Below are positions 38,820 to 41,245 of a stretch of DNA of 64,000 nucleotides, piece by piece. This stretch comes from Tetmemena sp. SeJ-2015 (taxonomy: Eukaryota; Ciliophora; Spirotrichea; Sporadotrichida; Oxytrichidae): positions 1 to 64,000 of the forward strand of contig JAJKFJ010022683.1 of NCBI GenBank assembly GCA_027382625.1, read 5' to 3'. The notes under the pieces are model-generated. The model ran no database searches and was not told the origin of the DNA. It was given only the letters and a program-made list of their open reading frames with translations. Both the position numbers and the translations under genes were made by a program. Position 1 is the stretch's first letter. Each line of letters starts with the position of its first letter.

Positions 38820-41245
38820 ATGGTAAGCGCACAATCATAAGACTCTTGGAGCAAGAAAGCCTTCAAGGCACTAGACACAGAGGCCAACGGCTATCTATTA
38901 AAAGATGAGATCCTTAGCCTAATAGACAACCAAGGAGTGGATCATCATCACTCACTGCTTGAATTGATCAATCACCTTTCTCAGATGGAAGATGATCACA
39001 AAATCAACTATGAGGAATTCTGCAAGCTTACTCAAGGTTTGTTCTTCCTTAAGAGAGTACTAGAGTGGGACCTCACTATCCCTCACTTCGATAAGTTCAG
39101 AAGCAATCTTCATGCTTTCATCTTAATTAAATCTGCAGTCATGCTATAAGAAAGTAAAGGAAGATGTGAATAACGAATACAGCTGGGGAGAGGTCGCTAC
39201 TTACATCCCTCCTCTCGCCAAAGCAGATCCTAAATGGTTCGCAACCGGCTTCTGCTCTACTGATAGTCAGTTCTGTCACTTTGGAGATATCGACAAGACC
39301 TTCTCCATCAGTCTATTGGCAAGGTGGTAGCATATGCATACATCCATAACATAATGGGGGATGATGTGCATAGCTTTGTTGGCAAGGAGCCTTCTGGAGT
39401 GGCATTCAACGCGCCAGTTTTCGATAAGCAGGGCAAGCCCCACAACCCAATGGTGAACACTGGAGCCATCATGGTATGCAGCTTGATTGTTCATCAAGGA
39501 AAGTCAATCACCGATGTTATGGAGTTTTACAAGAGAGCATCCGATCAAGCCGTCGTTGATACATCATATTCTTAAATTTTAAAGATATTTTATGAAGTAG
39601 ATGAGGAACTTTATCACGATGAGAAATTAACTGGGTACACCAATCACGCTCTAACTAACCTTATGCTTGCAAACAATGTATTCCCCAAGAAAGCTAACGC
39701 ACATGAGACTAAGATCTTCGCTGACGATTCTCTTGACTTGTACTTTAAGAACTGCTCAGTCCTCGTGAACACTGAGTCACTTTAATTAATTATAAACTTG
39801 CCAAATTTGGAGCGATGCTAGCTAACAATGGAATTAACCCTTCAACCGGAGATAGAATTTTGAGACCAGCAACTGTCAAGGCTGTTGTGACTTTAATGAC
39901 ATCTTGCGGAATGTATGATGGAGCAGGTAGTTTCATCAAGGACCTCGGAGTTCCTTCTAAGTCTGGAGTGTCAGGAGGTCTCTTGAGTGTCATTCCATTT
40001 TAAATTGTGAGAGCTTTCGCAACCTGGTCCCCACCTCTAAATGCAGAAGGAAACACAGTCAGAGGTATCCAACTCATTCACGAACTTAGCGCAATTGTAA
40101 AATCTACTAATCCTTTCCAAACTCTAATCCAAACCGTCATCGCTGATTGCTTATCAATTCATTGGATCTTGAAGGTATCTCTAGAATAAATAAGTTCTCT
40201 TTAACGCAAAGAAGCCTGAAATTATAGAATTCTTGGTTTCATAATTGTAAATCATATTGCATCGATTAGCCAGCCTATTAAGAAATTGAAAACTTAAGCG
40301 TTAGCGATGATTAATACAGACTCTTATATCAAACAAATAAAAATATATTTTTACATTTTATTTAATTTTTGTGTCATTCCTGGCCTCGGAGCTTTCTCTT
40401 GTTCATATAGCACAAATGATGCAATATTGCTCAATCTATAACAACTTCAATCTCTTCCACAGAATATCAAATACTTAATCCTACAATCGAATCAATTAAA
40501 AATATACTTTTCATTTCTATTTATTTATGTGTTGAATGCGAAGTACCTGAAATATTTTCATAAGGAGGTGTGAAAGGCATCGATTATGAATCCAACTATT
40601 TCTCATTTGCAAGTACAGATATTTTACTTTTTGATTCTTTTAAAGCTAGCTAGATAATTTAAGCGCAATCTTAGGTTATTTTCCACAGAGATGTGAATGT
40701 AGCAGATGTGACTAGAAAGCCTTTCCAAATTGTATCTGCTTGCTCCTGTGCAGCCAATGGAGATCTTGATTTATCTCTAGACTTTTCAACTCTGGAGTGG
40801 ACCTAACAAAGGGAGATTATGATCAGAGAACACCACTCCATCTAGCAGCAGCAGCTGGTCACGTCAACGTCGTTCAATACTTAATCAAAAAATTATTGAT
40901 AAGAAGTACCTCACAGTCCAAGAGACAGATGGGGAGCCACTCCTCTCAACGACGCAAAGAAGAAGAATTATGAAGTCTTATAGACTCTTATATGCAGCAG
41001 CCACAGGAGAAGTAAAGCTCATGAAGAGCCTTCACCTAAAGGGCTGGCAAGTTAACTCATACGATTATGATGGAAGAACTGCTCTAGGACTAGCAGCCTC
41101 AGAGGGCCATGTTCAAGCTATAAAATACCTACTAGCTCATGGAGCTAATCCTAATCACAAGGATGCCAGAGGTAATGATGCTCAAGCTGATGCAACCAGA
41201 GAGAACCATTAGGAAGCAGTTTAAGCTCTCAGTCACCACAATTGA
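38820..41245 (+). CDS. Glutaminase with ankyrin repeats, copy 1, scrambled locus
   Basis: Glutaminase (L-Gln to L-Glu plus ammonia) of the animal GLS type: N-terminal EF-hand-like helices (KAFKALDTEANGYLLKDEIL), catalytic serine-hydrolase domain (YIPPLAKADPKWFA, HNPMVNTGAIMV, KLTGYTNHAL, GGLLSVIPG) and C-terminal ankyrin repeats (YDQRTPLHLAAAAGHVNVV, YDGRTALGLAASEGHVQAI). Start ATG 38820, stop TGA 41243. The first part is linear with IESs at 39110, 39558 and 39779. The C-terminal part is scrambled: macronuclear order is 38820-39996, 40371-40396, 40011-40095, 40432-40463, 40681-40729, 40112-40151, 40740-40769, 40165-40185, then 40772 onward. One-base gaps near 39145 and 39313, and an unresolved joint at 40893-40980, remain. 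It is convergent with its paralog. Confidence 0.85.
39110..39138. other. 29-bp IES, pointer TCATGCT
   Basis: TCATGCT at 39110-39116 and 39139-39145 flanks an AT-rich insert absent from the paralog protein. After excision the frame is still off by one base, which I attribute to a separate indel. Confidence 0.6.
39558..39599. other. 42-bp IES, pointer GAT
   Basis: GAT at 39558 and 39600 borders an AT-rich insert. Excision gives AVVDEELYHDEKLTG, aligning with PILDENLYREEKLTG of the paralog. The insert happens to be readable, so only comparison with the paralog exposes it. Confidence 0.75.
39779..39795. other. 17-bp IES, pointer ACTT
   Basis: ACTT-TAATTAATTATAA-ACTT lies inside the catalytic domain. 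Excision restores NTESLAKFGAMLANNG, matching VDSLSRFGAMLANNG in the paralog. Confidence 0.9.
39987..40185 (+). other. Scrambled sector A: MDSs 1(end), 3, 6, 8 of glutaminase copy 1
   Basis: Contains, left to right, the end of MDS1 (pointer GTGTCATTCC, 39987-39996), MDS3 (40011-40095; pointers GAGCTTTC and CAAT), MDS6 (40112-40151; CCTTTCCAAA and TTGCT) and MDS8 (40165-40185; GATCTTGA and TATCTCTAGA). Inserts between them are 12-16 bp. Each pointer is repeated in sector B. Confidence 0.9.
40186..40370. other. AT-rich spacer between scrambled sectors
   Basis: Non-coding 185 bp separating the two interleaved MDS groups; eliminated during development according to the reconstruction. Confidence 0.6.
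40371..40893 (+). other. Scrambled sector B: MDSs 2, 4, 5, 7, 9 of glutaminase copy 1
   Basis: Contains MDS2 (40371-40396, only 26 bp), MDS4 (40432-40463), MDS5 (40681-40729; joined to MDS4 by TTCCACAGA), MDS7 (40740-40769) and MDS9 (from 40772). These interleave with sector A in the final gene. The 3' border of MDS9 is uncertain: AATACTTAATC near 40884 recurs at 40469 and GAAGTACCT near 40906 recurs at 40541, hinting at further scrambled joints. Confidence 0.85.

Follow-up and report, generated by a model that had tools for sequence, protein, structure and literature searches.

How is a glutaminase gene organized whose 3' half lies in the germline DNA in pieces that are out of order, and how could a working gene be made from it? 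This question is raised by copy 1 of a glutaminase gene in the window, i.e., the whole stretch of 64,000 nucleotides from Tetmemena sp. SeJ-2015 analyzed here, which appears to be germline DNA of a stichotrich ciliate. A first-pass annotation had described the C-terminal half of the gene as two interleaved sectors joined at eight pointers into one frame, and its view that copy 1 is a glutaminase-ankyrin gene scrambled and joined at pointers, as found in stichotrich germlines, and is accompanied by a collinear paralog is supported by the present analysis. Its eight pointer pairs are letter-exact repeats of 4-10 bp in 8/8 cases, and the eight joins share one frame if TAA and TAG are read as Gln. 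The number of sectors and the number of pieces had to be revised.

The whole gene (38820-41245) consists of 19 pieces (MDSs) and 18 junctions, of which 14 are scrambled and four are conventional (Table 1). Three conventional junctions lie in the 5' half and are followed by the 14 scrambled ones and one further conventional junction. An exact repeat of 3-12 bp is found at 18/18 joins, and retention of one repeat copy leads to the reading frame, the retained copy being judged at the protein level only. In the joined frame in-frame TAA and TAG are read as Gln and the stop is TGA at 41243-41245; the scrambled part is open after joining, with neither a stop nor a frame break, and the predicted product contains segments such as LQCEVP, DLEGISR and LVSQGGVKGIDQPAYQEIENLSVSDDQYRLLY. 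Between scrambled junctions the pieces measure 14-115 bp. The 21-26 bp MDSs remarked on before are both present (MDS11 and MDS5), and they are not the smallest, as pieces down to 14 bp exist.

Table 1. Pieces of copy 1, the spacers between its sectors and the paralogous loci. Positions are those of the window, except for copy 3.
Feature	Position	Strand	Remarks
MDS1	38820..39109	+	start ATG 38820; 3' end at conventional pointer AATCT 39105-39109
MDS2	39130..39559	+	conventional pointers AATCT 39130-39134 and TGA 39557-39559; 1-nt frame break near 39307
MDS3	39593..39782	+	conventional pointers TGA 39593-39595 and ACTT 39779-39782
MDS4	39796..39996	+	sector A; 3' end at pointer GTGTCATTCC 39987-39996
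MDS5	40371..40396	+	sector B; 26 bp; pointers GTGTCATTCC, GAGCTTTC
MDS6	40011..40095	+	sector A; pointers GAGCTTTC, CAAT
MDS7	40432..40463	+	sector B; pointers CAAT, TTCCACAGA
MDS8	40681..40729	+	sector C; pointers TTCCACAGA, CCTTTCCAAA
MDS9	40112..40151	+	sector A; pointers CCTTTCCAAA, TTGCT
MDS10	40740..40769	+	sector C; pointers TTGCT, GATCTTGA
MDS11	40165..40185	+	sector A; 21 bp; pointers GATCTTGA, TATCTCTAGA separated by AGG alone; TT in the sector C counterpart
MDS12	40772..40886	+	sector C; pointers TATCTCTAGA, AATACTTAATC
MDS13 (new)	40470..40487	+	sector B; 18 bp; pointers AATACTTAATC, conventional AAT; P0002 reads YLILQCEVP here
MDS14 (new)	40535..40548	+	sector B; 14 bp; pointers AAT, GAAGTACCT
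MDS15 (new boundaries)	40903..40962	+	sector C; pointers GAAGTACCT, ACGCAAAGAAG
MDS16 (new)	40204..40244	+	sector A; pointers ACGCAAAGAAG, TTTCATAA; supported by P0002 up to FLVS
MDS17 (new)	40556..40586	+	sector B; pointers TTTCATAA, GCATCGATTA
MDS18 (new)	40259..40329	+	sector A; pointers GCATCGATTA, AGACTCTTATAT
MDS19	40982..41245	+	sector C; pointer AGACTCTTATAT 40982-40993; stop TGA 41243-41245
AT-rich spacer, sectors A/B	40330..40370	.	41 bp
AT-rich spacer, sectors B/C	40587..40680	.	94 bp
Copy 2	41432..43491	-	collinear paralog, tail to tail with copy 1; short conventional IESs; one extra base near 42391
Copy 3 (locus L003)	G000:C2064:2822-4168	-	third glutaminase paralog, collinear, on another contig

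The order of the joins is given most directly by P0002, a contiguous protein of 455 aa encoded on one 1,895-bp contig (source label 'lgn'), which was retrieved with the copy 2 protein as query. Joined copy 1 and P0002 are 95.4% identical over 455 aa with 0 gaps in BLASTP, a level at which P0002 represents another species or strain; it is known as a protein only. P0002 contains the joined order across joins 1-8, i.e., all eight joins proposed before, and across four of the seven further junctions. Within the last 155 residues, a segment that covers the joins AATACTTAATC, AAT, GAAGTACCT and ACGCAAAGAAG, 152 residues agree. As the joined pieces spell nearly the protein of a close relative's unbroken contig, the cell likely joins them when making its working nucleus. 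P0002 ends at FLVS, where the window continues with a TAA codon, presumably taken as a stop by a gene caller using the standard code. For the last three joins the basis is therefore given by copy 2, P0001 and P0003 together with more distant homologs.

The joins were traced with a protein-guided aligner, in which jumps along the DNA are permitted only at exact repeats. Settings with a low jump cost overfitted, inventing dozens of jumps, and were discarded; the costs were therefore raised before the aligner was used. With P0002 as guide, all eight earlier joins were recovered, followed by AATACTTAATC, the conventional AAT, GAAGTACCT and ACGCAAAGAAG, and 434/454 residues were identical. P0003 from Stylonychia lemnae (617 aa, 2,389-bp contig) recovered 8/8 of the earlier joins and four new scrambled joins; it is devoid of a stretch of the gene, and the aligner skipped that stretch in copy 1. 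At the TTGCT join both P0002 and P0003 made a detour via 40426-40432 that leaves the product unchanged. P0001 and copy 2 each recovered 6/8 of the earlier joins, missing CCTTTCCAAA and TTGCT, and the same four new scrambled joins as P0003. With all four guides (P0002, P0001, P0003 and copy 2) the pieces of the gene thus lie out of order in the germline DNA compared to a contiguous gene. While four of the seven additional junctions rest on P0002, the remaining three (TTTCATAA, GCATCGATTA and AGACTCTTATAT) rest on homologs of 55-72% and were each recovered by three guides (copy 2, P0001 and P0003). Joins 15-18 are crossed in one match by 138/221 homologous proteins, 21 of them free of gaps. As 101 of these 221 homologs came from a search with the joined C-terminus, their selection depends on the joins, while their own contiguity is independent of them.

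Controls were performed for the guided joins. In 39997-40981 the real sequence gave 5 backward jumps and a gain of 97 over the collinear path, while backward jumps occurred in 0/12 shuffles, with no gain over the collinear path. Collinear copy 2 gave 0 backward jumps with the guides P0002 and P0003; copy 3 gave 0 with copy 2 as guide and one spurious excursion with P0003. Exact runs of this length at random joins would have a summed log10 P of -52.6 over the 14 scrambled pointers. If no protein guide is used the repeats are only moderately special, as 21, 9 and 5 of 113 other windows hold at least as many repeats of 8, 9 and 10 bp or more, respectively. Beyond the longer pointers of the first-pass annotation, the exact repeats in 38820-41300 include AGACTCTTATAT (40318/40982), ACGCAAAGAAG (40204/40952), AATACTTAATC (40470/40876), GCATCGATTA (40259/40577) and GAAGTACCT (40540/40903); other repeats listed in this region play no role.

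These results bear on the simpler map, in which the gene would have two sectors, eight pointers, an ordinary IES of 217 bp at 40464-40680 and, beyond 40772, a collinear remainder. Its eight joins are correct and one uninterrupted frame runs through all of them, but with this chain the frame is lost after the segment ending in GHVNVVQYLI, i.e., it breaks after VVQYLI. It leaves out about 40 residues that copy 2, P0001 and P0003 all possess; these are encoded, with exact pointers of 8-12 bp, at 40204-40244, 40259-40329, 40470-40548 and 40556-40586. P0002 contradicts it as well, reading YLILQCEVPHSPRDRWGATPLNDAKKPEI, which requires four of the further junctions. Hence, the eight pointers are not the complete set, as seven further junctions, six scrambled and one conventional, are needed to reach the TGA. 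The step from 40463 to 40681 leads from sector B into sector C and bypasses three further pieces, and is not the removal of one 217-bp IES; these three pieces lie within that supposed IES, and two more lie within a 185-bp spacer. We regard the simpler map as very improbable. In a practical sense, short pieces hidden in apparent IESs can cause half of a scrambled locus to be overlooked when it is read by eye.

Copy 1 is therefore best described by the three-sector map, and its germline order shows three ascending runs, all on one strand, where one odd and one even sector had been proposed. Sector A (39796-40329) holds pieces 4, 6, 9, 11, 16 and 18, sector B (40371-40586) pieces 5, 7, 13, 14 and 17, and sector C (40681-41245) pieces 8, 10, 12, 15 and 19, each sector being collinear with the gene. 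Along the gene the sectors are used in the order ABABCACACBCABAC, and neighbors within a run are never neighbors in the gene except for 13 and 14. If these two are merged, the 15 blocks show only 2 descents (P 1.1e-5 under random order). Pointers are common to all sector pairs, namely 5 to A-B, 6 to A-C and 3 to B-C.

The composition of the locus was not used in drawing the piece map. Over 39987-41244 the G+C content is 43.4% in the pieces (906 bp) and 20.7% between them (352 bp); the sequence between the pieces is thus AT-rich, and its elimination is predicted. An origin of the interleaving by mis-joined reads during assembly could draw on the single-base breaks in copies 1 and 2, which hint at an imperfect assembly. 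Interleaving at a scale of 14-115 bp, with every join marked by an exact repeat and with a contrast in composition between pieces and gaps, is not a pattern of mis-assembly, and we give such an artefact practically no credence.

Other parts of the window also stand out in composition or coding content. G+C reaches 42-46% at 16000-22000, while the rest of the window is mostly at 20-39%; here, an ORF of 991 aa (17906-20881, + strand) has helicase-like matches under the Pfam cutoffs and nothing credible in NCBIfam. A strong purine excess of the + strand is seen at 28001-32000 (GC skew 0.28-0.33, AT skew 0.22-0.27), where a 396-aa frame has no Pfam match. A 507-aa frame on the - strand (24872-26395) carries a cyclic-nucleotide-binding domain (9.4e-25).

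The joined product is a glutaminase followed by ankyrin repeats. In Pfam the joined protein matches glutaminase PF04960 at E 3e-89 with 299 bits against a cutoff of 27, and ankyrin repeats are found too. The human kidney glutaminase 5uqe aligns in the joined order with residues 61-499 of joined copy 1, which shares with the human kidney and liver glutaminases (PDB 5uqe, 8gwr and 8t0z) the arrangement of a glutaminase domain and then ankyrin repeats. In contrast to 5uqe, which matches the first repeats only, to residue 499, the ciliate protein has more ankyrin repeats beyond. A tree of 19 proteins groups copy 1 with P0002 (100/100) and copy 3 with P0003 (92/99) and gives copy 2 no definite position. 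Between copies 1 and 2, the stops of which are 186 bp apart, the joined part of copy 1 shows 58/42/99 differences at codon positions 1/2/3, with pN 0.262 and pS 0.721; these are raw proportions and not dN/dS, since synonymous sites are saturated or nearly so.

The unscrambled half of copy 1 is one base short near 39307 (39300-39312) when compared with copy 2 and P0002. The site directly precedes a SIGK stretch, and SxxK is the active-site motif of glutaminases. The missing base means that this allele or this assembly of copy 1 is not fully open. It could thus be asked if copy 1 is a dead relic, once scrambled and no longer assembled, the role of which has been taken by copies 2 and 3; the frame break and the presence of two collinear paralogs would fit such a state. 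It is opposed by the scrambled pointers, which are exact in 14/14 cases, and by the joined scrambled part, which is free of stops and frame breaks. Moreover, the 95.4% identity to P0002 and the excess of differences at third positions suggest that the joined product is under selection. Copy 2 has a one-base break likewise, which makes base errors of the assembly plausible, and assembly error is a plausible reading of the breaks in both copies. A relic is accordingly judged unlikely. In copy 2, the extra base near 42391 sits in a G run and is likely an assembly error or an allele.

Taken together, there is good support for copy 1 as a scrambled gene of the known stichotrich type, in a three-way form. 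With high probability it is a glutaminase-ankyrin gene with its 3' half in 16 same-strand pieces over three interleaved sectors, and the gene is likely reassembled at 18 pointers during development of the somatic nucleus. Each join at a pointer repeat is predicted to leave one pointer copy, and the AT-rich stretches between the pieces would be discarded. By analogy to Oxytricha, RNA templates from the old macronucleus may guide the joins. An unscrambled copy 1 was not found in the assembly, and a search for P0002 in viral contigs yielded 15 pattern matches and 0 relatives.

Compared to known systems, copy 1 resembles the odd-even genes of Oxytricha and Tetmemena as described in PMC9797194 in its disordered pieces, pointers at the junctions, long scrambled pointers, IESs in place of pieces and paralogs; that source reports that scrambled genes of these genera have more paralogs. 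It differs from the odd-even genes described there by having three collinear sectors and by several IESs that replace two or more consecutive pieces. Like the atypical or 'tangled cord' loci of Oxytricha (PMC5940158), copy 1 contains the pattern 121323, which is present because the A-B, A-C and B-C pairs all share pointers. The pattern occurs in 42/364 pointer triples and is not enriched in copy 1, as random words have a mean of 24.8 (sd 12.6) and 49/500 reach this count. In PMC5940158, 96% of the Oxytricha loci are reducible by repeat and return words and 22 loci are not; unlike the latter, the pointer word of copy 1 reduces completely, by repeat words, in our own implementation of repeat/return removal. 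Among the papers searched, none links glutaminase with the terms scrambled, macronuclear and micronuclear. We make no claim of novelty for three-sector loci, as the main pattern survey lies outside this search; copy 1 is a known phenomenon in tidy and testable form.

How the three sectors arose can be addressed with less certainty. They may have begun as tandem copies of one gene stretch, with each piece surviving in just one of them: the stretch would have been tandemly triplicated in the germline, and complementary decay would have left each of the 15 blocks in exactly one copy, to be re-pooled by the soma. This origin possibly applies and fits the order, but it stays somewhat below an even chance and is unproven, as the tests gave no clear residual similarity. 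IES flanks and the sequence they replace matched at 83/300 positions (expected 0.268, p 0.37), one of nine comparisons of an IES with its replaced piece reached p 0.027, uncorrected, while three were too short to test, and residual similarity was seen in 0/3 spacers. For the lengths of IESs and replaced pieces, rho is 0.61 (p 0.08). That the sectors arose otherwise, by stepwise recombination, has close to an even chance; besides the IESs, which lack clear residual similarity to the pieces they stand in for, it is favored by the pointer word, which is fully reducible by repeat-word steps in a layered pattern as in PMC5940158. Three strictly ascending sectors on one strand, which tandem copies give directly, speak against it, as does MDS11 (21 bp), which differs from its counterpart in sector C (40762-40781, 20 bp) only between two common pointers (GATCTTGA-AGG-TATCTCTAGA versus GATCTTGA-TT-TATCTCTAGA). 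P0002 reads DMEGISR at this site, the one that stands out in the comparison, and fits the AGG version of sector A. Under the triplication reading the exchange would have shrunk to three bases here, and with AGG in place of TT the scrambled MDS11 would make good a one-base frame error.

How scrambled genes begin is debated. With three sectors, two collinear paralogs and a near-identical contiguous relative, this locus allows the steps from a plain to a scrambled gene to be compared directly. If true, the decay of three tandem copies would be a simple source of the 121323 'tangled cord' topology in the hardest Oxytricha loci.
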